Shown one piece after another: positions 2,711 to 25,828 of a DNA stretch of 27,848 nt. The stretch covers positions 1-27,848 of the IMG/VR virus record IMGVR_UViG_3300028189_000047; one strand, given 5' to 3'. Below the pieces are notes generated by a model. That model saw nothing but the letters and a program-made list of their open reading frames with translations, was not told where the DNA came from and did no database searches. Position numbers and translations under genes: made by a program. Numbering within the stretch: position 1 is the stretch's first letter; each line of letters begins with the position of its first letter. The DNA comes from a virus.

Positions 2711-4783
2711 CTACTTCTTTTCTTCTTCTACAACTTTAGGTTTTGTTATATCTTTTAACATAGAACCGTCTTCTAACTCTTTGTTAAAATATTCTTTAAA
2801 CTGTTTAATTCTTAACTTTTGACCTTTGTACTCGAAAAAACCACCCTTATGAAACACTATACTATCAAGTTTAATACCTAAAGTTATAGTATCCATAACT
2901 TTATCAATACCATGTGAATAAGATATTTCTACTTCTACAGGACTACGTGGTCTATCCATCTTATTCTTTACTATTGATACTCTACAACTCATACCAATAG
3001 GATCTTCAGATTTCTTATTTTCTGGATGTATAAAGCCTGTATTAGCTGTCTTTAATCTAACAGAAGAATAAAACTTTACAGCATTACCATGTGGTGTTGT
3101 TTCAGGATTACCAAATACAATACCTATTTTTTCTCTTACTTGAGATACTAATATCAATGCTACTTTACTATTCCATATTAACTTATTAATTTTTCTTAAT
3201 GCAGTAGAGACAATCCTTGCTTCTGACGCTAATGCTTTTGTATCTTCTGTTTTTCCAGCTTCAAATTGTTTCTTACATCCTAATACTGATAATGAGTCTA
3301 CAACTAAACAAGCAGGTACTTTATTCCTTTTAGCAAATTCACAAGCTAATTCTATTTTATCAAAAGCATCTTCAAGATAATCAGAATCAAGTATTAACAA
3401 TTTAGAATCATCTATACCTAATTTCTTAGACCAACCAGATAACATAGAATTCTCAGTATCTAGCATTATACCAACGCCACCATTCTTCTGACAAGATGCT
3501 AATAAATTTGCAGCAAATATACTATTATGTGTTACTATAAAATCTTTAGTAACAAAAAGTTTACTTTTATGTGCTACTGATATACAAGTTACTTCTTTCT
3601 TGTTCTTAATAGATACAATTTTTTGTAACCTTCTACCATTAGAACCTCTTTTATAAAATTTATATCTGTCAACTTTTCTTTTTAACCTGAATGGTACTAG
3701 ATTATTGAAATTAATTATAACACGATAACTTAATCTACCACGTTTCTTAACTCCTTTATGCGTATAGAAAGTGTATCTACTTGTTACTTTACACTTACCA
3801 CCAAGAGACAAAACAATAAATTTTACATTTTCTGACAATTGCTTTGATGTTGTACTATATTCCATAAAACCACTAACAGAACAATGACCATCAGAATCCA
3901 TTAATCCTCTAAGAATTTCTAACCTAACATTAATATTATTAAATAAGTATTCTCTAGGAACAAATTTTTCATATGATTTCTTACCTAGCAAACCAACATT
4001 TCTAAGTTTATCACACATACCTGAAATAGTATATGAGTACTTACCACAAGCATCCTTTCTACATATACTACCAAGAAACTTAGGTATTTCTACGTCAGCA
4101 GTTGTTAGTTTTACAACGCACTGATTACCTGTACTATCTTTCTTTTTGTAATCAGCTAAATGACCACCACCTATTAACAATCCCAATAAATAAGGATCAA
4201 TACTAACTTTTTGTTTATTAAATTTAATAGGTTCTACTAGTGGTATTTCTACACGATATTTCTCTTTTGGTATTAAACCACCATAATCAATTATATCATT
4301 AGTAGACATAACTTTATAAGTTCCATATTTTTTAGAAACTTTACCTGTACCTAACTTCTCTTTTAATCTTTCTCTTCTACCTTTTACATACCACAAATGA
4401 TCTTCACATGATTCAATTTCAGAACCATCATCAAATATAAAATTATAGCACTTTCTTTTACCTCTATTAAATACACCTGTCACCTTAGTTTTACTACCAT
4501 CTTTTGAAAATACATAATCACCTATCTTTAAATCTGATATTTTTGACCATCCGTCAGGTGTCATAACTGGTGTATCATTTGGTAGTGCTTTTCCGGTACT
4601 TTGCCACCCGAATATCTCTGTTAATCTACCATAAGGAATTCCACCACCTAAAGAATAGTCAAGAGCACCACTACCAGTACTAAGAAATCCTAATTTATGT
4701 TCTGGTAGTGGTTTCTCTTTTAACATAGAACCAGATTTTCCAAATGTATCTAATAAATCTTCATATATTTTATCTTGGTTCAT
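2711..4783 (-). CDS. recA: RecA-type recombinase interrupted by an intein
   Basis: The strand-exchange protein forms filaments on ssDNA for recombination-dependent replication and repair. The host protein is residues 1-65 plus 421-690, 335 aa after splicing, close to normal RecA length. The P-loop is split: GWQSTGK ends the N-extein and S begins the C-extein, rebuilding GxxxxGKS. Other RecA marks are the LDTEN motif, Walker B ACLVVDSLSVL, and GNPETTPHGNAVKFYSSVRL, the L2-loop region that contacts DNA. A 355-aa intein occupies residues 66-420. The ATG at 4783 has AAGGGG upstream and follows the SSB stop by 9 bases. Without splicing the ATPase site would be destroyed, so the intein must be active or the gene is dead. 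Confidence 0.95.
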   Translation of the reverse strand: MNQDKIYEDLLDTFGKSGSMLKEKPLPEHKLGFLSTGSGALDYSLGGGIPYGRLTEIFGWQSTGKALPNDTPVMTPDGWSKISDLKIGDYVFSKDGSKTKVTGVFNRGKRKCYNFIFDDGSEIESCEDHLWYVKGRRERLKEKLGTGKVSKKYGTYKVMSTNDIIDYGGLIPKEKYRVEIPLVEPIKFNKQKVSIDPYLLGLLIGGGHLADYKKKDSTGNQCVVKLTTADVEIPKFLGSICRKDACGKYSYTISGMCDKLRNVGLLGKKSYEKFVPREYLFNNINVRLEILRGLMDSDGHCSVSGFMEYSTTSKQLSENVKFIVLSLGGKCKVTSRYTFYTHKGVKKRGRLSYRVIINFNNLVPFRLKRKVDRYKFYKRGSNGRRLQKIVSIKNKKEVTCISVAHKSKLFVTKDFIVTHNSIFAANLLASCQKNGGVGIMLDTENSMLSGWSKKLGIDDSKLLILDSDYLEDAFDKIELACEFAKRNKVPACLVVDSLSVLGCKKQFEAGKTEDTKALASEARIVSTALRKINKLIWNSKVALILVSQVREKIGIVFGNPETTPHGNAVKFYSSVRLKTANTGFIHPENKKSEDPIGMSCRVSIVKNKMDRPRSPVEVEISYSHGIDKVMDTITLGIKLDSIVFHKGGFFEYKGQKLRIKQFKEYFNKELEDGSMLKDITKPKVVEEEKK
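3524..4588 (-). mobile_element. Class 3-type intein with LAGLIDADG endonuclease domain, in the recA P-loop
   Basis: The intein is 355 aa, from Ala1 (ALPNDTPVMTPDG) to the terminal THN, followed by extein Ser. It lacks a Cys/Ser at position 1. It carries the three marks of class 3 inteins: Trp at block B position 12 (CEDHLW, residue 66, with block B His64), Cys at block F position 4 (VTCISV, residue 335) and Thr at block G position 5 (VTHN, residue 353). An internal homing-endonuclease domain has two LAGLIDADG helices. The second, LRGLMDSDG (around 226-234), keeps the catalytic Asp; the first, LLGLLIGGG (around 134-142), has Gly in its place. Splicing looks intact, cleavage probably impaired. 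Confidence 0.9.
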
Positions 4784-6447: not shown

Positions 6448-6696
6448 CTAAACTCTATCTTTTATATTTAATTCCTCCTCTAATCTTTTTACACCTAAAT
6501 ATTCTCTTTGACGTTCTGGAATAAATGATTCAACATTTAGTGAGTATGATATTTCATACAACATTCTCCAATGTTTAGAACAAACAAATAACTTACATCT
6601 TACGTAGTTTAAATTAGTATAACCCCAACATGAATAAGTAATAGCATTATTAAGATCTAACTCTTCTCCACAGAAATGACATTTATTAACATTCAC
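6448..6696 (-). CDS. Small zinc-finger protein of unknown function
   Basis: The frame has CHFCGEEL near the N-terminus and VRCKLFVCSKHW in the middle, so two Cys pairs and a His could form a treble-clef type zinc site. No further domain is seen. The start is uncertain: GTG at 6696 has GGGAG at 8 bases, while TTG at 6711 has poor spacing. Either start lies inside the end of the polymerase gene, implying translational coupling. It is the last gene before the terminator. Confidence 0.65.
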   Translation of the reverse strand: MNVNKCHFCGEELDLNNAITYSCWGYTNLNYVRCKLFVCSKHWRMLYEISYSLNVESFIPERQREYLGVKRLEEELNIKDRV

Positions 6697-9010
6697 CCCA
6701 GTTTCTCCCAACCTTTACATCAACTAATACATCACCTATTAATGTATTTTTCTCTAATATACTCTTACATTTCTCTATTAAATCTTCTTCACTTTGATGT
6801 ATTTTAAAATACACAGCATCATGTTTAGTATGTATTACTTTACTCTTTTTATATTTAAGATAGTTATGACAATCTAATACCTTTGGCCAAAATATTGCAG
6901 AACTACCAGCTTGAATAGGAAAATTAACAGATTGTCTAAATATATCACCGTCCATATCAAATATATTATACTGTTTAGTTATGAACCTTCTTTTCCTACC
7001 TACAATATCAACTATTTCACCATTAAATAATGCATCATCTCTAAACCCATTTAACATTTTCTTTACATTTTTAAAATTCCTAAAGAATCCTTTCTTTAAC
7101 TCTTCTGCAAACTCTGCTTCCATGTCAAATTCTATCGCAATACTTTCAGATCCTCTACCATATAATACACCATAAATAACACCTTTAATCTGTGTCCATA
7201 TATCTTCTGTATAATCTAAGTTAATTATCATCTTTGTGAGTTGTTGCTTTACATCTGGTGAATCTAGAATCTCTATTAATTTATTTTCCTTTGCTAAGTA
7301 CGCAGCGATCCTTAATTCAAACTGTTTATAATCCATACCAACAAACATAAATCCTTGTTCTGTAGTAAACAGTTCTCTATAACCACCTTCTCTTGGTATT
7401 GTATGTAGAGGTGATGTTAATCTACCACTAACTGTTCCATTAATATTATTAGAATTATGAATTTTACCATCATATTGTAATAACTTAAATAGATCTGTAT
7501 TATAATCCGGTGTATATGAACTCAAGTTTTCAGAGTATTCTAAAAGTTGTAACTCAGTTTTAATTAACTCAACTTTAGAATACTCCTTCTTATTAATCAC
7601 ACCTGTAAGATATGTTCCTAAACCTTTAACCAAATGTCTCAGTTCTAATAATAATTTAGGTGCTTCATGTTTATTTTCTAGTATTTTTAATGCTGCCTCG
7701 TTTGTACAAGGAGCACCAGTAGGTGTTTTAGATGGACATTTTAATTTCAAATCTTTATATAATACTTCACCAACTTGTTTTGTTGAGTTCCAATTTATAG
7801 GTGATATATCATTAAGTTTTCTTTTTATTCTAACACATTCAAGATTTTTATTTAAACTTAAATTCTTTAATCTATTTATATCTATAGTTATTCCTGTTGA
7901 TTCTATATCTATAAGCATTCTATTAACAGGCATAATAGTTTTAAAGAACAAATCTTCATAACCATCTATCACTATCCAATCCTTGAATATATTATACAGT
8001 CTAAATGTTACATCAGTATCAAAGTTATTATACAATGCTACCTTATTTATATCTTCTTTATCTAAAGCTAATTTACTTTCTAAATTATAATAAGGTACAT
8101 CTGTATATACTGATGCAAGCGTCTTTAAACCATGACTTACATTGTCGTTTAATATACCTATTGCAGCATAAGTATCAAAATACCAATTCTGTACTTCTAT
8201 ACCATACCTATTTTTAAGAAACAAAACATCAAACTTGGTATGTGATACAGATCTTATATTTAATGCAAATATCTTCTTATACCATTCTTGATTAAAAGGT
8301 ATACATATAGATGAACCTTCAGCAAAAGAGAAACTACAAGTTACTATATTATCATTATATGTATTCAGACCAGTAGTTTCTATATCAAAAGCATATGAAT
8401 TACATTTACTTACCAAATTATACACCTTTTGAAAATCTTCTGTATATATGTATTTTCTTGGTATAGGTTTATATTTACCTTCTAGTACACGAAACGCCTT
8501 ATATATATCTGATTGAAACTCAAACAAATTAGCTGGTCTCTTAATCAAAGAACTAGGATGATATGTAGGCATTATTCTTATACCTTCCCTAATATCATCA
8601 AACACATACCCCCTCACATCAGATATTTTCTTATTACCTAAGAAATATTTTGTAGCTACTGCACCTAAAGGGACAATAACTTTAGGTTTAATTTCAAATA
8701 TTTCATCTTCTAAATAATCCTTACATGCCAATACTTCAGGTGGTTTAGGATTACCCTTAGATAATTGCATACACTTTAAAAGTGTAGTCCTATATACATC
8801 ATTTAATTTATAACCTGCCTTCTCTACACACTCTGACAATAACATACCTATTACACCAGATATGGGTGACCCATATACAGCATCTTGTTGACCAATAACA
8901 TCACCAACAAACATTATCTTATTATCAGTATTACCTTCACCCATAATCCAATGATTCATTCTTTTATTTCTACTATTCTTTCCTAAGTGACATTTATCAC
9001 ACTTTCTCAT
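6686..9010 (-). CDS. Family A DNA polymerase with 3'-5' exonuclease and N-terminal uracil-DNA-glycosylase-like domain
   Basis: This is the replicative polymerase. Residues 1-180 resemble a family 4 iron-sulfur UDG: C4, C7, C80 and C96 as cluster ligands, VGDVIGQQDAVYGSPISG as active-site loop and PTYHPSSL near 149-156. The exonuclease shows exo I FDIETTGL (D209, E211), exo II SHTKFD (D261) and exo III YNNFD (D331). The polymerase shows motif A MDYKQFELR (D560), motif B KGVIYGVLYG (609-618) and motif C KHDAVYF (H730, D731). Motif C has Ala where Glu usually follows Asp. A similar UDG-polymerase fusion is known in SPO1-like phages. ATG at 9010 has AAGGAGA upstream. Confidence 0.93.
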   Translation of the reverse strand: MRKCDKCHLGKNSRNKRMNHWIMGEGNTDNKIMFVGDVIGQQDAVYGSPISGVIGMLLSECVEKAGYKLNDVYRTTLLKCMQLSKGNPKPPEVLACKDYLEDEIFEIKPKVIVPLGAVATKYFLGNKKISDVRGYVFDDIREGIRIMPTYHPSSLIKRPANLFEFQSDIYKAFRVLEGKYKPIPRKYIYTEDFQKVYNLVSKCNSYAFDIETTGLNTYNDNIVTCSFSFAEGSSICIPFNQEWYKKIFALNIRSVSHTKFDVLFLKNRYGIEVQNWYFDTYAAIGILNDNVSHGLKTLASVYTDVPYYNLESKLALDKEDINKVALYNNFDTDVTFRLYNIFKDWIVIDGYEDLFFKTIMPVNRMLIDIESTGITIDINRLKNLSLNKNLECVRIKRKLNDISPINWNSTKQVGEVLYKDLKLKCPSKTPTGAPCTNEAALKILENKHEAPKLLLELRHLVKGLGTYLTGVINKKEYSKVELIKTELQLLEYSENLSSYTPDYNTDLFKLLQYDGKIHNSNNINGTVSGRLTSPLHTIPREGGYRELFTTEQGFMFVGMDYKQFELRIAAYLAKENKLIEILDSPDVKQQLTKMIINLDYTEDIWTQIKGVIYGVLYGRGSESIAIEFDMEAEFAEELKKGFFRNFKNVKKMLNGFRDDALFNGEIVDIVGRKRRFITKQYNIFDMDGDIFRQSVNFPIQAGSSAIFWPKVLDCHNYLKYKKSKVIHTKHDAVYFKIHQSEEDLIEKCKSILEKNTLIGDVLVDVKVGRNWGEC

Positions 9011-9173
9011 ATCTCTCCTTTTTCATTAATAAGTATTTTTTTACTTGAACATCTGGTATATGTAGAGGTATTGTACTAACACAACCCCAACATAATTTCT
9101 CTGATTCTATATTAAACTCCCAAGAATCGTACTCATAATTAAGTCCACATACTGTACAAGTTTTAGTTTTCAT
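8997..9173 (-). CDS. HIPxxQ-tail zinc ribbon protein 1
   Basis: This 58-aa member of the window's repeated family has CTVCG, then LCWGC, then IPLHIPDVQVKKYLL. Two CxxC pairs should bind one zinc; the tail has the shared I-P-x-H-I-P-x-x-Q-x-x-K-Y-L pattern. ATG at 9173 is preferred to an in-frame GTG at 9182. Its end overlaps the polymerase start by 14 bases and it overlaps the next copy upstream, so it is co-translated with its neighbours. Function is unknown. Confidence 0.8.
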   Translation of the reverse strand: MKTKTCTVCGLNYEYDSWEFNIESEKLCWGCVSTIPLHIPDVQVKKYLLMKKERYEKV

Positions 9174-9330
9174 TTTTCTCACTTAAAAATAATAAATACT
9201 TTCTTAATTGATAAACATTTATATGACTAGGTACACTATTAACACAATCTACACAATAACCTACTATTTGTTCAGTATATTCATAGACTTGTTTTTCTTC
9301 TCCACAACATTTACATTTTAATATTCTCAT
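9163..9330 (-). CDS. HIPxxQ-tail zinc ribbon protein 2
   Basis: This 55-aa paralogue has KCKCCGEE, then YCVDC, then VPSHINVYQLRKYLL; the tail is more diverged, with N replacing P in HIP. The ATG at 9330 forms an ATGA overlap with the stop of the upstream gene. An in-frame TTG six codons earlier (9348) is possible but lies inside that gene and is not favoured. Function is unknown. Confidence 0.78.
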   Translation of the reverse strand: MRILKCKCCGEEKQVYEYTEQIVGYCVDCVNSVPSHINVYQLRKYLLFLSEKNEN

Positions 9331-9752
9331 TTTATATAAGGAATCCAATCACTACAGTTTAAAGATATTTGTGTTATTTCTTCACATTCTCTAAAGTCTA
9401 CACCAAAATCACCAAAATGTATACTATGTCCTTCTTTACATCTTTCATTTACTACAGAACAATCATAGCATACCCTATTATGTGTGGATAAGCTACTAAA
9501 TTTCTCACCACACTTCAAACAATTTCTTTTTTCTCTAACTATATCTCTAGGAGATATAGATTTTTCAGTACGAATATATGAACTTTTTCTGCTTTCACTT
9601 GCTAGTTTTCTGGTTTCCTTACATATGATTTCTCTATGTTTACGACAATATTGTTTATTGGATGATCTGGTAAGTAGCTCTCTACCACAATTTTCATATT
9701 TACAGTATGTTTTTCTTATTCTTTTAGTTAAAAATTTACCCTTTATAGCCAT
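9327..9752 (-). CDS. Zinc-binding protein with two Cys clusters, unknown function
   Basis: This 141-aa basic protein starts MAIKGKFLTKR. It has an N-terminal treble-clef-like cluster (YCKYENCGREL, then YCRKHRE), then a CxxC...CxxC ribbon (NCLKCGEKF, then VCYDC), and ends SDWIPYIK. The DWIPY ending recurs as NDWIPYF in the protein at 22743-23012, so this tail may be a shared small domain. It overlaps zinc ribbon 3 upstream by 17 bases and zinc ribbon 2 downstream by 4. ATG at 9752 has AGGAGG 5-6 bases before it. I do not recognise the family. Confidence 0.8.
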   Translation of the reverse strand: MAIKGKFLTKRIRKTYCKYENCGRELLTRSSNKQYCRKHREIICKETRKLASESRKSSYIRTEKSISPRDIVREKRNCLKCGEKFSSLSTHNRVCYDCSVVNERCKEGHSIHFGDFGVDFRECEEITQISLNCSDWIPYIK

Positions 9753-9915
9753 TTATCCTCCTAGCTTTTAATTTGCTTAATATGTATTTCTCATGTTGTT
9801 CTGGTGGAATGTGGTCTATAGGTATTAAATTAAAACATTTATTACAATACAAAGCTAACCACATACCAGTTTTTATAATATGATTTTCACCACAACCTTT
9901 ACATTTATCAATCAT
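9736..9915 (-). CDS. HIPxxQ-tail zinc ribbon protein 3
   Basis: This 59-aa protein begins MIDKCKGCGENH, continues with YCNKCFNLIP and then DHIPPEQHEKYIL, a full match to the family pattern. ATG at 9915 has AAAGGA 5-6 bases upstream. Stop is TAA at 9738-9736, so its end runs into the following gene. Function is unknown. Confidence 0.82.
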   Translation of the reverse strand: MIDKCKGCGENHIIKTGMWLALYCNKCFNLIPIDHIPPEQHEKYILSKLKARRINGYKG

Positions 9916-10108
9916 AATTTTCCTTTTTTAAAGATATTAAATATTTTTCATGTTGTTCTAAAGGTATATGTTTAGGTATAGAATAAAAACAAATATTACA
10001 ATATTGTGGAAGAAGATCTGGATCATGTATATTAGGATCATGTATATTAGGATCATGTATATTAGGATCATGTATAGATCCACAACACGCACATTTATAC
10101 ACACTCAA
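9908..10108 (-). CDS. HIPxxQ-tail zinc ribbon protein 4, with NIHDP pentapeptide repeats
   Basis: The first Cys pair (YKCACCG) and second (YCNICF) are separated by tandem copies of the pentapeptide NIHDP, then the tail IPKHIPLEQHEKYLI follows. The repeats come from a 15-bp DNA unit present 3.8 times, so the loop between zinc knuckles has expanded. There is no ATG: TTG at 10108 overlaps the stop of the upstream gene (TTGA), and GTG at 10102 is the alternative. Function is unknown. Confidence 0.78.
   Translation of the reverse strand: MSVYKCACCGSIHDPNIHDPNIHDPNIHDPDLLPQYCNICFYSIPKHIPLEQHEKYLISLKKENYD
10020..10076. repeat. 15-bp tandem repeat, about 3.8 copies
   Basis: The plus-strand unit GGATCATGTATATTA is repeated at 10020, 10035 and 10050, with a partial fourth copy from 10065. 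The unit is a multiple of three and lies inside a gene, so copy changes would alter protein length without a frameshift. Confidence 0.95.
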
Positions 10109-15299: not shown

Positions 15300-16997
15300 C
15301 TAAGTTTTTAATTTCATACTATATAACTTTGTACCTTCTGCAAAAAGTACTGTTATACCATCTTTCATCAACAACATTGATGTGCGAATATCTTTACTAT
15401 CTACAACTCTAATTCTAGTATTGTTCAAATTATTAAAATAAATTTCCATCTGCCCATCTTCTACTATAGATGCCACAACTCCGTTCTCCAAAACTATAAA
15501 ATTATTATATTTATAATCTACATCTTTAGTGGTTCTCAATGAGTAATTATCATATTTTTCAGAAAATACAATTGTAACTCTATCATACATACCATCTTTA
15601 AAACATATTATCTGGACAACTTGTGAATCATGCTTTGCTTCAATAATCTTATAATCCTCTAATTCAGATATAGGTATTACATGGCATTGTGTGGACTTCT
15701 TTGTAGGTACAGGTATCATCAAATAAGGTTTTCCTAAAATACTTTGATAAACTAAACCAGAAAACATCTCACTAGAATTTGGCATTATATTCCAATAGGA
15801 TCTAACAGTTTTAATTAAAGTATTATTAAGTATTTTGAATCTCACCTCAGACAACATATTATTATATTGTAAAAATACACTATTGCCTACAACCATCATA
15901 TCATCTGCTCGTAATTGAATACTATCTTGAGGTAAATTTAACTCATTAGTTATTGATAAAATACCTTTATCTATGTGAACAAATATTGGCATTTGTGTAT
16001 TTTCTTCAATTACTAATTCAGTCTTTGTGGAAGAGAGAGTATGTTCTTTCTTATTAATTTGGATCTTACTTGATCCTTTTACTATGTTTTTATTTTCATA
16101 TCTTTTATAGTATAAGATATTTTCTGAAAAATCAAGATTCATAATCTCTTTAACAATAAATTTTTCTACTGAACTAATCACTTTAACTACACCAACTATA
16201 GGTATAAGCTTTCCCATATTTTCAGGAGGTGCTTCACGAACACCATTTTCAAACAACCTTTGAAACCATTCTAAATAGGTATCAGGTATAACATTAAAAT
16301 CTCTAACAGCAGATGGTAATCTTATATTAGAACCAAATATAGATGCATTTTCTTTCATTCGTTTTATTAATTCTTTTTTATTATATTGTGAATGCTTACC
16401 CTTATAAGGATGTATACCAATCAATAACTGACAAGTAAGTATTGCGAATGAAAACCAATCAGTATTTTCATTAAAACCTTTTGTTTGGTGGTCTTTAACA
16501 TAAGGCATTATTGCTGTTGCTGGATAACTTGGTGTTTGGTATGAATCAACATCTATAAAATAAGGACATTGAAACTTTGTATCTACTAATATATTTAATT
16601 CATTAAGATCAACAATAAGACACTTTTTAGAATGGATATTATTTATAACATTTCTCAAAACATTTATAAGATCTATAGCCATCTTATCAGATATATTGTT
16701 CATATTTCTGAAATCATTAGTAAACAATTTACAAATAGAAATAGTTTTCTTGATCCAATCCATTGTGAAACCTACATCAACCTGTCTACTATTACTGAGA
16801 ATATTTAAAGGTACTATGACTTTAGAATCAGTAATATTTTTTAATTCTAAAATCTTCCCATTAGCAATCATTTTACTACGGTCATGATAGATTTTATAAA
16901 TACTAGAACCTTTTCCGTAGACTTCACCCTCACCTCCTTTAGTTATAAAATCATTTTGAGTAAGGCTTATTTTTTTACCATTCTCATACACTATCAA
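15300..16997 (-). CDS. Serine/threonine protein kinase-like protein of a VWA/PP2C/kinase triad
   Basis: The N-terminal 280 residues are a protein-kinase fold: glycine loop KGGEGEVYG (20-28), Lys35 in IYKIY, catalytic loop VDLNELNIL (D130, N135; HRD is replaced by IVD), metal-binding DVD in place of DFG (D149) and TDWFSFAILTCQLLIGIHPY, the helix typical after the activation loop. The remaining 280 residues are strand-rich and may be a beta-propeller-like sensor; no family is recognised. Essential residues are present, so activity is plausible. TTG at 16997 follows GGAGG by 8 bases, and the gene overlaps the phosphatase by 14. Kinase, PP2C and VWA in one operon match the TerY-P triad of Ter systems. 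Confidence 0.82.
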   Translation of the reverse strand: MIVYENGKKISLTQNDFITKGGEGEVYGKGSSIYKIYHDRSKMIANGKILELKNITDSKVIVPLNILSNSRQVDVGFTMDWIKKTISICKLFTNDFRNMNNISDKMAIDLINVLRNVINNIHSKKCLIVDLNELNILVDTKFQCPYFIDVDSYQTPSYPATAIMPYVKDHQTKGFNENTDWFSFAILTCQLLIGIHPYKGKHSQYNKKELIKRMKENASIFGSNIRLPSAVRDFNVIPDTYLEWFQRLFENGVREAPPENMGKLIPIVGVVKVISSVEKFIVKEIMNLDFSENILYYKRYENKNIVKGSSKIQINKKEHTLSSTKTELVIEENTQMPIFVHIDKGILSITNELNLPQDSIQLRADDMMVVGNSVFLQYNNMLSEVRFKILNNTLIKTVRSYWNIMPNSSEMFSGLVYQSILGKPYLMIPVPTKKSTQCHVIPISELEDYKIIEAKHDSQVVQIICFKDGMYDRVTIVFSEKYDNYSLRTTKDVDYKYNNFIVLENGVVASIVEDGQMEIYFNNLNNTRIRVVDSKDIRTSMLLMKDGITVLFAEGTKLYSMKLKT

Positions 16998-17772
16998 AAT
17001 AAAAACCTCCTATGGAAATATCATCATAATGTGTTCCTAATTTTTTTATTGCTTTATTAGATCTACGCTTAACAAATTCTCCTTTAATATTTTTAAAGGA
17101 TGTAAATTCATTAACTACTTCTACTATATTATCTGCAAAATCACCTGAAAAAGATTCAATACCATCAGAAGCAATTAAAACAGCTTTAACATCTTTTTTA
17201 GGTATATTTATTTGAAAAGGTTTATTAACAGGTATATTATTATTGTACATATTAACACCTGCAAAATAACGTTTCTCAAACACATAAGGACTAAACTTTT
17301 TAAGATATTTTTCCACATCTTCTGAACTCTTCAAATAAGATAAATAGAAAGGCGCATTCTCTGCATATGAGTAATTCATAATTTGTACTCTACCATCTTT
17401 CATAATCTGAATAATACTACCATCTCCGAAAACTCTCACTAAAATTTGATCTTCAACAACCATTGCACACATCAAAGTAGCATCTAAACAAGCATGATCT
17501 AATCCCATTAAAGTCACTACATCTAAAGAAGGTTGTAAAACTGTGAATTTAGGCAAAGACAAACCTTTATCAGCTTTAAATTCTACAAACATATCATCAA
17601 GAAATGTTCTATGAGCTTGACTTACAAGTATTCTGGCGCCTATATCAGTATTATGAGAACTAGAACAACCGTCTGAAAGAATTACATAAGGAAATGGTTT
17701 TGTCCCATGCCTTATGTAATCCTCACAGATCGAATGAGCAGTTCCTTTAGTTAAAAAAGAATCTACTTGCAT
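16984..17772 (-). CDS. PP2C-family protein phosphatase
   Basis: A 262-aa metal-dependent Ser/Thr phosphatase. Motifs in order: EDYI (17-20), VILSDGCSSSHNTDIGARI with metal-binding D34-G35, LDATLMCAMV (97-106), VRVFGDGSI (112-120), VLIASDGIESF with D203, and HYDDISIGGF with D250/D251. All expected metal ligands are present. It would remove phosphates placed by the adjacent kinase, possibly on the VWA protein. ATG at 17772 follows the VWA stop by one base, so the two are translated together. Confidence 0.88.
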   Translation of the reverse strand: MQVDSFLTKGTAHSICEDYIRHGTKPFPYVILSDGCSSSHNTDIGARILVSQAHRTFLDDMFVEFKADKGLSLPKFTVLQPSLDVVTLMGLDHACLDATLMCAMVVEDQILVRVFGDGSIIQIMKDGRVQIMNYSYAENAPFYLSYLKSSEDVEKYLKKFSPYVFEKRYFAGVNMYNNNIPVNKPFQINIPKKDVKAVLIASDGIESFSGDFADNIVEVVNEFTSFKNIKGEFVKRRSNKAIKKLGTHYDDISIGGFYFDSV

Positions 17773-17773
17773 A

Positions 17774-18517
17774 TTAGAATCCAGCTATTTGGCTGGGACC
17801 TCCTGTTCCTATAGACTGGCTTTGGCTTGAAATACTTTGACTAACAAAGTCAGCTAATTGAGCAAGCTTACTTTCAGTAGCATCACCAACATTAATAAAC
17901 TTATCAAGATTGGCGTCCTGTTTAAAAGATTCCAAACATTGTTTGACAGTACTATCTTCAATATTAACACCTACAAGAACTGATATTAAGGATTCAATTT
18001 CTTCATCATGACCAACCTTCTTAATCCAGTTAGATATTCCTTCAGGTGTCATAGTTGATCTATTATCCATACCATCTGTAATAATGTACAAAGCACCATT
18101 AACATCAAAATCTTGATCTATAAGTGTTTTTGCAAAAGTTACTATAGATCCAACTCCTGAGTAAGCTGCATCAAATAATGCTGTCATACCTGATGGATTC
18201 AAACTTTTATAATCATCTATGTCTATAGTATTCAAAGTTTTAAATCCGTGAATCTCTTCCAACTCATGGTTGAATGAAATAAGTCTAATCATAAGATTCT
18301 CTGCTCTTGGTGACTTCTTACAAGCTTCTACAATTTTCTTAATAGTTTTTACCAACTCTGTATCAAAATCTCTAACACTTGATGATCTATCCACAGCTAT
18401 AACTACCAATGTGTACTCTGTTGCTCCTAAATCTTCAGGTCTAATACCTGAAAAATTAAAAGCACCAGTTCCAGGAATTGTTGATTTTACTAAGTCATCT
18501 CCCATTAAATTTGGCAT
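17774..18517 (-). CDS. VWA-domain protein (TerY-like)
   Basis: A 247-aa von Willebrand A-domain protein with a complete MIDAS metal site: DRSSS (D43, S45, S47), T112 in PSGMTALFD and D148 in YIITDGMDN. Such domains bind a divalent metal and mediate protein contacts. The C-terminal tail is Ser/Gln/Gly-rich (SQSISSQSQSIGTGGPSQIA) and may be a flexible or phosphorylated region. The start at 18517 has GAAAGG upstream. With the adjacent PP2C and kinase it forms a triad like TerY-P in tellurite/stress-resistance islands. It is soluble, with no membrane helix or signal peptide. Confidence 0.88.
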   Translation of the reverse strand: MPNLMGDDLVKSTIPGTGAFNFSGIRPEDLGATEYTLVVIAVDRSSSVRDFDTELVKTIKKIVEACKKSPRAENLMIRLISFNHELEEIHGFKTLNTIDIDDYKSLNPSGMTALFDAAYSGVGSIVTFAKTLIDQDFDVNGALYIITDGMDNRSTMTPEGISNWIKKVGHDEEIESLISVLVGVNIEDSTVKQCLESFKQDANLDKFINVGDATESKLAQLADFVSQSISSQSQSIGTGGPSQIAGF

Positions 18518-18530
18518 ATTAACAACCTTT

Positions 18531-19322
18531 CTATTTTAAAAAGTCTATTGAATTAGAAACCTGCATACCTCTACTCTTTAAATCATTTACAAAATCTATT
18601 CCAAGCTGCTCAAAAGAAGGAACATTTGAAGTAGCATCTTCTAGTAAAACCAACTTCTTAATACTATCATCTCCAAATGCATTAGCAACATCTGTTACAG
18701 TATTAGCTACACAATGTGACAAAGCTTCTCCTGCTATAACTACAATATCAGCCCTTTCAAGAGTTTCAATAAGTCTTGTATTTAACATAGTACCAGGATC
18801 TTCAGGATCAGGTACATCTGCTTGAACTGCTGAATAATGTTCTGTCCAAAAATTACTACCTTTTGTAACATAATCTACCATTTTGAAAGACTTTTCCCAC
18901 TCTGTAAGTACATTGAACAATTCTGGAACTACTTGATATCCTTCTGAACCTATCAAACAATGTGGAGGCCATATACATAGTAGATATCTACTGTTAATAT
19001 CAAGTGTTTTTACATACTCTAAAGCTCTTTTTTGAAAATTAGGATTTGTAGATCTCCAAACTCCATTTTCCACATCATCTTTACTAATCAATGTGAATGG
19101 GTTTGGGTGTTTACCATCACTATCTATCCAAAATATTGGATGAGCTATATCTACATAATGATGACTATCTAAAGTTACGTGAATATCTTTGATCTTACCA
19201 CCTAAACGAGAAATCATACTAGAAAGTCTTTGTATATCTTTATCTGCACCAGGTACAAACAAAGAACCTTTTGGATCACAAAAATCTTTTTGTGGGTCAA
19301 TAATTAATAATTCTAAATTCAA
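18531..19322 (-). CDS. Nicotinamidase / cysteine hydrolase (PncA-like)
   Basis: PncA-type enzymes convert nicotinamide to nicotinic acid for NAD salvage. The isochorismatase fold shows LLIIDPQKDF with catalytic D9, YVTKGSNFW with Lys154 and EALSHCVANT with nucleophile C204. Metal ligands are plausible at D52 and H54 (LDSHHYVDIAHP) and H121 (WPPHCLIGSEG). At 263 aa it is somewhat long, with a loop near 65-90. TTG at 19322 is preceded by AAGGAGA. It is the first gene of the repeat-flanked cassette. The exact substrate is inferred from motifs; other amidohydrolases share the fold. Confidence 0.82.
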   Translation of the reverse strand: MNLELLIIDPQKDFCDPKGSLFVPGADKDIQRLSSMISRLGGKIKDIHVTLDSHHYVDIAHPIFWIDSDGKHPNPFTLISKDDVENGVWRSTNPNFQKRALEYVKTLDINSRYLLCIWPPHCLIGSEGYQVVPELFNVLTEWEKSFKMVDYVTKGSNFWTEHYSAVQADVPDPEDPGTMLNTRLIETLERADIVVIAGEALSHCVANTVTDVANAFGDDSIKKLVLLEDATSNVPSFEQLGIDFVNDLKSRGMQVSNSIDFLK

Positions 19323-23972: not shown

Positions 23973-24133
23973 AATATTTTATATTTAGAATTTAAATATT
24001 TTTTATGTTGTTTTAGTGGAATGTATTTAGGTATAATCTTATCTCTACACACAGCACAAACACAACCACATATATAAGATTCGCTACATTCATTAATTAT
24101 ATTTTCTTTACAACATTTACATTTATAATACAT
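23969..24133 (-). CDS. HIPxxQ-tail zinc ribbon protein 6
   Basis: A 54-aa family member: YKCKCCKEN, then CVCAVCRDKIIP, then KYIPLKQHKKYLNSKYK. The tail has Y in place of the conserved His of HIP. Extra Cys residues (CGCVCAVC) might give a second zinc ligand set. It overlaps the membrane-anchored zinc protein upstream by 11 bases. Confidence 0.8.
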   Translation of the reverse strand: MYYKCKCCKENIINECSESYICGCVCAVCRDKIIPKYIPLKQHKKYLNSKYKIL

Positions 24134-24632
24134 ATTTCTTTTTAAATAATTTTAAATAGTTTTTATTTTGGCTTAATGGTATATGTGATGGTATTTTATA
24201 CCATAAAGTTTCATAACATTTTACACATTTAATAAATATTTCATCATTATTTGTAATATTACCATATTTCAAACCATTAATTATAATATTACCATATTTA
24301 AAACCATTAAAAATTTCAAAATCTACATTTTTTGAAATTGTAAGTTTTTTATTACATTTTTTACATATTAATTTAATATTTTTATGAAAACCAATACCAT
24401 ATTTAAATTTTTTAGTGAAAAAATATGTAAGTAAAATACCAATAACATTTACTAATGTAAGTAAAATTCCAAAATATATTGAGTAAATTTTATTTGATTC
24501 AAAAAAAGATTTACTCATACTAAAACCCCAATTATTTTGTTCATATACAAACAAAGAGTTATATATTATAAAAAATATTATTGGAGTACTACATATATAG
24601 TAATATAAAAAATAGTAGATATACATATTCAT
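24123..24632 (-). CDS. Membrane-anchored HIPxxQ-tail zinc ribbon protein
   Basis: A 169-aa fusion. Residues 4-30 and about 50-73 are hydrophobic (IYYFLYYYICSTPIIFFIIY, then IYFGILLTLVNVIGILLTYF) and should span the membrane. The rest is a zinc ribbon with LICKKCNKKL and KCVKCYETL, and the tail IPSHIPLSQNKNYLKLF. A 10-aa internal repeat (FKYGNIIING, then LKYGNITNND) lengthens the loop between the Cys pairs. ATG at 24632 forms an ATGA overlap with the HNH gene stop. It implies at least one family member works at the membrane. Confidence 0.72.
   Translation of the reverse strand: MNMYIYYFLYYYICSTPIIFFIIYNSLFVYEQNNWGFSMSKSFFESNKIYSIYFGILLTLVNVIGILLTYFFTKKFKYGIGFHKNIKLICKKCNKKLTISKNVDFEIFNGFKYGNIIINGLKYGNITNNDEIFIKCVKCYETLWYKIPSHIPLSQNKNYLKLFKKKYVL
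24255..24309. repeat. Imperfect 30-bp tandem duplication
   Basis: Two 25-base copies (24255-24279 and 24285-24309), 30 bases apart, differ at one position. They encode FKYGNIIING and LKYGNITNND in the loop of the membrane-anchored zinc protein. Confidence 0.85.
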
Positions 24633-25317: not shown

Positions 25318-25492
25318 CTCTTATCCTTTCATTTTTCTTAATCTTTGCTTTTATATATTTAGAAACTGTTATTTTGGAATATGATTGTGTACGAGTTTGT
25401 GTATATCAAAAAAAACACGTTCTACATATTTTACTATTAGGTAGAAAATCACATATTGACACATCTTTATAACAAAGTAAACATTTTCTCAT
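25301..25492 (-). pseudogene. Degenerate HIPxxQ-tail zinc ribbon gene
   Basis: From ATG at 25492 the frame reads MRKCLLCYKDVSICDFL, then KICRTCFF and stops at a run of eight T. Dropping one T restores DIHKLVHNHIPK, then a TAA where Glu is expected, QF, and after a second shift KYIKAKIKKNERI. Two frameshifts and a stop show true decay, not a single read error. Overlaps the stop of zinc ribbon 7 (ATGA). Confidence 0.75.
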
Positions 25493-25662
25493 ATTATCTT
25501 TTTAAATTCTAAATATTTCTTATGTTGTCTTGATGGTATGTGGTCTGGTATTATTTTATCTCTACATTTTAAACAAACACCAATTAAAAATGAACGTGTA
25601 AAACTTTTATGAATACATAACGCACATAATATACAGTATTTATATTCATAGTTAGTTTCCAT
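25489..25662 (-). CDS. HIPxxQ-tail zinc ribbon protein 7
   Basis: A 57-aa family member: YCILCALC, then VCLKCRDKIIP, then DHIPSRQHKKYLEFKK. The start at 25662 (METNYEYKYC) is chosen because the longer frame back to 25776 runs through the preceding gene in another frame and makes no family sense. It overlaps that gene by 11 bases. Confidence 0.8.
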   Translation of the reverse strand: METNYEYKYCILCALCIHKSFTRSFLIGVCLKCRDKIIPDHIPSRQHKKYLEFKKII

Positions 25663-25828
25663 ATTTTTTATCCATGTATTTTGACCATTGTTCTTTTGGT
25701 ATATGGTCTGGTATTTTAGATTCAACAAAACAAATATAACAATAACCTTTATGTTCATCATTAGAGTTACTATCAAAACCTACCTGTTGTGTATTACATT
25801 TTTTACACAAATAATATTCATTATTCAT
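25652..25828 (-). CDS. HIPxxQ-tail zinc ribbon protein 8
   Basis: A 58-aa family member: YLCKKCNTQ, a longer loop (VGFDSNSNDEHKG), then YCYICFVESKIP and DHIPKEQWSKYMDKKYG. ATG at 25828 overlaps the helicase stop (ATGA), so it is translated right after the helicase. Function is unknown. Confidence 0.82.
   Translation of the reverse strand: MNNEYYLCKKCNTQQVGFDSNSNDEHKGYCYICFVESKIPDHIPKEQWSKYMDKKYGN

Follow-up and report, generated by a model that had tools for sequence, protein, structure and literature searches.

A predicted class 3 intein with a degenerate LAGLIDADG endonuclease domain in the ATP-binding loop of a phage RecA

In class 3 protein splicing, a Cys residue at position 4 of block F (F:4) attacks the N-terminal splice junction, the N-extein passes to the +1 residue, and Asn cyclizes (PMC5222942, PMC4031507, PMC6195587). 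The mycobacterial DnaB inteins of this class, Msm DnaBi1 (also DnaB-1; PDB 6bs8 and 6own) and Mle DnaB, contain a Trp-Cys-Thr triad and an Ala at residue 1, and interrupt the P-loop with Gly-Lys before and Ser after the intein (FGVGK/STLGL, PMC5222942). In phages, inteins between Lys and Thr of the P-loop have been published for terminases, and class 3 inteins have been published for mycobacteriophages (PMC5050341). TerL1-a and related P-loop inteins occupy this “classic” K/T site in phage ATPases, their hosts being terminases, RecB-like proteins, and others; no phage recA host is named in the accessible portions of that paper (PMC5050341). Two recombinase inteins have been described as well. 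The archaeal mini-intein of Pyrococcus horikoshii RadA, a RecA-family recombinase, is inserted in the P-loop, and its splicing is conditional (PMC5790916). The RecA intein of Mycobacterium tuberculosis (PDB 2imz and 5i0a) belongs to class 1, with Cys1 and with Asp at F:4 (PMC4031507, PMC6195587).

The intein described here lies in the recA gene of a viral contig (IMG/VR record IMGVR_UViG_3300028189_000047, positions 1 to 27,848), and the full 27,848 nucleotides of this contig are referred to as the window. The host is identified as RecA by its Pfam match (Table 1), its Walker A motif, and a conserved core that aligns with phage RecAs. The intein comprises residues 66–420 of the precursor, is inserted after Lys65 of the Walker A loop (GWQSTGK/S), and would leave a 335-residue RecA after joining of the two exteins. 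An initial annotation had placed an intein between the Lys and Ser of this loop, and its boundaries prove exact to the residue. As that annotation also proposed, we infer from the sequence that unspliced RecA would lack a normal ATP site. The GC content is 28.3% for the window, 28.6% for the intein, and 30.7% for the recA exteins. Five other IMG/VR contigs contain the identical full-length intein, and a sixth is identical over residues 99–355. Similar to the mycobacterial DnaB inteins, the RecA intein has the triad, Ala1, and a P-loop insertion between Gly-Lys and Ser. Unlike Msm DnaBi1, which is a mini-intein with no endonuclease in a helicase host, it contains a full LAGLIDADG domain (LAGLIDADG_3 in Pfam, E 3.1e-7) and interrupts a recombinase.

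Table 1. Positions in the window of the recA precursor, its exteins and intein, and the residues discussed in the text
Feature	Positions	Strand	Evidence or remark
recA precursor ORF, 690 aa, ATG start	2711..4783	-	Pfam RecA E 1.5e-50
N-extein, 65 aa, C-terminal end is Walker A GWQSTGK	4589..4783	-	
Predicted class 3 intein, 355 aa, LAGLIDADG domain nested inside	3524..4588	-	
C-extein, 270 aa, first residue is Walker A Ser (predicted +1 nucleophile)	2711..3523	-	
Ala1, in place of a Cys/Ser1 nucleophile	4586..4588	-	
Cys47, aligned with Cys48 (redox partner in Msm DnaBi1)	4448..4450	-	alignment; Cys in 6/200 relatives
Block B: His64 (B:10) 4397-4399, Leu65, Trp66 (B:12) 4391-4393	4391..4399	-	
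Block C catalytic position, Gly141; Asp in relatives	4166..4168	-	192 D, 6 N, 2 E of 200
Block E catalytic Asp231, intact	3896..3898	-	block E conservation biased: block E in two search patterns
Block F Cys335 (F:4), predicted first nucleophile	3584..3586	-	Cys in 199/200 relatives
Block G: Thr353 (G:5) 3530-3532, His354 3527-3529, Asn355 3524-3526	3524..3532	-	

Class 3 inteins lack the Cys, Ser, or Thr of class 1 at residue 1 and instead combine Trp at B:12, Cys at F:4, and Thr at G:5. The RecA intein has Ala1 together with Trp66, Cys335, and Thr353, as the initial annotation had read them. It may share descent with proven class 3 inteins: it aligns over its full length with gp205 of the Bixzunavirus Cane17, presumably the homologue of Catera Gp206, which has been tested experimentally. 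An AlphaFold2 model of the intein and 10 flanking extein residues per side, built from an alignment of 75 sequences, has a mean pLDDT of 92.3, with values below 50 only in the N-terminal flank and the last block. In VIA-align comparisons, the model overlays with the PI-SceI precursor (1jva_B) over 327 residues (Z 27.1, rmsd 3.2), with the class 3 intein Msm DnaB-1 (6bs8_C) over 123 residues of the splicing fold with matching ends (Z 18.6, rmsd 1.5 Å), and with the class 3 splicing domain 6riy_A over 128 residues (Z 18.4, rmsd 1.9). The M. tuberculosis RecA intein shares the Hint fold with Z 15–16. Since the scores of class 1 inteins are only slightly lower (6frh_A, Z 18.1, rmsd 2.6, 149 residues), the fold cannot decide the class, and it is the residues that do. 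What the comparison with 6bs8 does fix is the two ends of the intein, because model residues 11 (Ala1) and 365 (Asn355) fall on residues 1 and 139 of that structure; a shifted register of the blocks, which had been named as a reason for doubt, is thus not seen. With the alignment and the structural ends fixing the positions of Trp66, Cys335, and Thr353, the class 3 chemistry predicted from these residues is well supported.

The family to which this intein belongs is widespread. The initial annotation had considered a class 3 intein unusual outside the mycobacteriophages and in a low-GC phage, a view that is not borne out. By tblastn (E ≤ 1e-3), 615 of 50,697 phage records match the intein, the match spanning 80% or more of the intein in 487, and the matching records divide into 281 from Mycobacterium phages and 334 from other phages. 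The top rows include phages of Vibrio, Klebsiella, Pseudomonas, Shewanella, Proteus, Salmonella, and Raoultella. Relatives in bacterial genome contigs (best 80 of 311) come, as judged by contig title, from many phyla, for example Chloroflexota, Planctomycetota, Acidobacteria, Verrucomicrobia, Burkholderiales, and actinomycetes. For comparison of individual residues, relatives were taken from 16 named phages (of the 615 records), 78 viral contigs, one viral contig from a separate scan (L008), these 80 genome contigs, and 77 further viral contigs, and removal of 52 repeated rows reduced the 252 rows to 200 distinct inteins; the window-population copies (L032, L033, L319, and L320) were left out of the counts. 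None of the 200 is closer to the RecA intein than 46.5% identity (L117).

The search pattern was block E for the 78-contig scan of viral relatives, either block E or block A for the 77-contig scan, and either block G or block C for the genome relatives, so that counts at G:5–G:7 and in blocks A, C, and E are biased upward; none of the patterns included B:12 or F:4. The full triad is present in 195 of the 200 distinct relatives, with Trp at B:12 in 197 and Cys at F:4 in all but one. Ala occupies residue 1 in 148 relatives, whereas 9 have Ser and 1 has Cys. Gly-Lys directly precedes the intein in 176 relatives (88 of 95 in the viral and named-phage subset), and at +1, 175 relatives have Thr, 20 have Ser, and 5 have Cys. 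Because the triad, the Gly-Lys, and the +1 residue are conserved across the 200 relatives, the family, as read from these alignments, is marked by both its chemistry and its site, the junction between Lys and Ser or Thr of P-loop ATPases. A recurrent host in the genome contigs is an APLAYMRGR/TLND protein that appears PhoH-like by eye (L134, L156, L160, L167, L177, L181, L184, and L187), in which Arg replaces the Lys before the intein; Gly-Arg is found at this position in 9 of the 200 relatives. PhoH intein hosts are known in mycobacteria (PMC6195587).

The LAGLIDADG domain and its fold are present in the RecA intein, and the domain is classed here, from its residues, as degenerate rather than active. 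An active enzyme of this type has a catalytic Asp in both block C and block E; Asp231 of block E is retained, and the block C position is Gly141. At the corresponding position, 192 of the 200 relatives have Asp, 6 have Asn, 2 have Glu, and none has Gly, where the Asp count leans high because Asp at this position was a requirement of one of the two patterns used to scan genomes; the 95 relatives chosen without block C have 91 Asp and 4 Asn. Because Gly replaces the block C catalytic Asp in this intein only, homing is probably dead. The lone loss of the block C Asp may leave nicking activity. A precedent is the PhoVMA intein, in which the loss of aspartates has inactivated the endonuclease (PMC8966425).

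Alleles of this recA with no intein were identified in four viral contigs (L199–L202), whose RecAs are 68–70% identical and have the uninterrupted P-loop GWQSSGKS. As compared by eye, L202 shares with the window a gene order of single-strand-binding-like protein, RecA, small protein, and terminase. A single-protein search with the C-extein recovered nothing beyond the window population except one distant RecA; the empty alleles surfaced with an alignment search, in which 77 of 80 RecA loci have an uninterrupted P-loop, two belong to the window population, and one is L208. Comparison of the recA exteins with the four empty alleles gives dN of 0.23–0.24 and dS of 0.78–1.99, with dS near saturation and with dN/dS unpolarized, so that the value is not specific to the intein-bearing branch. 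These values fit a recA that is under selection and that would therefore be spliced. The remaining locus, L208 (1151–2962), encodes a phage RecA with a different P-loop intein, inserted four residues upstream (GPE/C...VVHN/SGGKTT, by eye). It starts with Cys and ends with VVHN, which by eye is class 1, and its Pfam Intein_splicing score is 31.1 bits (cutoff 35.8); it has no LAGLIDADG match.

A second phage recombinase contains an intein of the same family. L107 (IMGVR_UViG_3300044645_002124) encodes a UvsX-like recombinase (PHROG 97, E 6.7e-24; Pfam RecA, E 2.4e-17) that a class 3 intein interrupts at the same site, between Lys and Thr. In this UvsX-like family of 42 contigs, 40 reach the P-loop, which is occupied by the intein in 5 and empty in 35; the nearest empty allele is 92.5% identical. 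Similar to the RecA intein, the L107 intein resides in a RecA-family protein and includes a LAGLIDADG domain. The main differences are that L107 retains the block C Asp and that, in a tree of 152 inteins, it is placed in another clade (16 members, support 0.976), near PhoH and helicase inteins, whereas the window intein belongs to a 19-member clade (support 0.98). Because the two inteins are in separate supported clades, the RecA and UvsX-like hosts look like two independent invasions. The hosts of 17 of the 18 other members of the window clade were scanned, giving 8 terminases, 6 helicases, and 3 with no match. The two nearest tree neighbors of the RecA intein are terminase inteins, with modest supports of 0.84 and 0.75. 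A jump from a terminase is the likeliest, but not proven, source of the RecA intein.

Together, we consider it very likely that a functional phage recA here contains a full-length class 3 intein, which entered by P-loop homing, whose endonuclease has since degenerated, and which is now inherited vertically. Entry would have been through a P-loop-targeting endonuclease, most likely that of a terminase P-loop intein; the endonuclease would later have lost its catalytic Asp, so that it probably no longer homes, and the intein would be retained through the need for precise loss. By analogy to the characterized class 3 inteins, Cys335 would attack the Lys(-1)-Ala1 bond, the N-extein would then be transferred to Ser+1, and Asn355 would cyclize. 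Ligation would restore the ATP-binding loop GWQSTGKS in a RecA that would be inactive before splicing.

Two other views of what the element is can be set against the residues. The top PDB sequence match of the intein is a chain of gp41-1 (E 9.5e-11), an intein that is class 1 (PMC7664689) and that also ends in THN, as might be expected if the RecA intein were a class 1 or mixed intein merely resembling class 3. The first-matching chain, however, is an engineered variant (C1A, F65W, D107C), and Ala1 offers no class 1 nucleophile. Further, the class 1 Asp at F:4 is replaced by Cys, with Trp at B:12, as in the 195 relatives with the full triad. Class 1 identity is ruled out on these residues, and the probability of a mixed or look-alike intein is very small. 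The absence of the block C Asp could likewise suggest a dead, non-splicing remnant, or an assembly artefact, within recA. Such a reading is highly improbable, however, in view of the open frame, the intact splicing residues, the conserved recA exteins, and the identical intein in six other contigs that come from different IMG data sets. These six contigs rule out an assembly error, and a chance motif is ruled out by tblastn matches to named phages across all 355 residues with E down to 2e-51.

A further alternative concerns why the intein persists. In line with the post-translational switch raised in the initial annotation, the intein may have become a regulator that gates RecA splicing, for example by oxidation of Cys47 and Cys335 or by ssDNA, such that RecA is produced only under set conditions. 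DnaBi1 shares the P-loop site and the class, and its splicing is blocked by a Cys118-Cys48 disulfide (PMC6195587); Cys47 of the RecA intein aligns with this Cys48. In addition, the P-loop intein of P. horikoshii RadA is under ssDNA control (PMC5790916). The endonuclease is probably dead, yet the intein is found in six of six other contigs of the population, five of which were found with the intein itself as the query. Cys47 deserves attention because so few relatives have Cys at this position (Table 1), but this frequency is about that expected from the Cys content of the RecA intein, and because there are 9 Cys in its 355 residues, Cys47 may be due to chance. Moreover, the empty recA alleles manage with no intein, and recent loss of the endonuclease would account equally for retention. 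We therefore consider a regulatory role unlikely. The specific proposal that an intein with a dead endonuclease is kept because a DnaBi1-like Cys335-Cys47 redox lock gates RecA, giving active RecA only in a suitable redox (or ssDNA) state, is a little more doubtful still.

As a predicted class 3 intein of a phage recA that is very probably functional, the RecA intein is distinctive in its new host gene and its degenerate endonuclease. Phage recombinases, RecA and the UvsX-like protein of L107, join the hosts of class 3 inteins. In the accessible portions of the literature, to which this search was confined, neither a phage recA nor a phage uvsX is described as the host of a class 3 intein, and no claim of a first report is made. 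One intein family occupies the same junction between Lys and Ser or Thr in terminases, helicases, PhoH, and recombinases, and host-to-host jumping by way of this shared P-loop is therefore testable. The occupied and empty syntenic recA alleles, with an endonuclease that lacks its block C Asp, provide a clean system in which to ask whether an immobile intein is kept by regulation or by inertia.

Several other genes of the window, all on the minus strand, have features of their own. A single 774-residue protein (6686–9010) combines an N-terminal uracil-DNA-glycosylase-superfamily domain, a 3'-5' exonuclease, and DNA polymerase A; similar full-length polymerase proteins are found in other phages at 23–27% identity. 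Searches with the window terminase and polymerase reached no more than distant phage matches and point to no particular host. Three adjoining genes (15300–18517) encode a protein-kinase-like protein (Pfam 26.2 bits, cutoff 31.7; one weak PADLOC match, MkoA), a PP2C phosphatase (E 1.2e-9), and a 247-residue protein that resembles a von Willebrand A domain by eye and has no Pfam match, an arrangement reminiscent of bacterial kinase-phosphatase-vWA triads. The gene at 18531–19322 encodes a nicotinamidase/isochorismatase-like hydrolase with a weak Pfam match (22.4 bits, cutoff 27). Finally, five small paralogues (8997–9182, 9163–9348, 9908–10108, 24123–24632, and 25489–25776) have in common a CxxC pair and an “(I/V)PxHI...Q...YL” tail; the two that were searched against Pfam gave no match, and the paralogue at 9908–10108 has a short repeated (N)IHDP run between its cysteine pairs.
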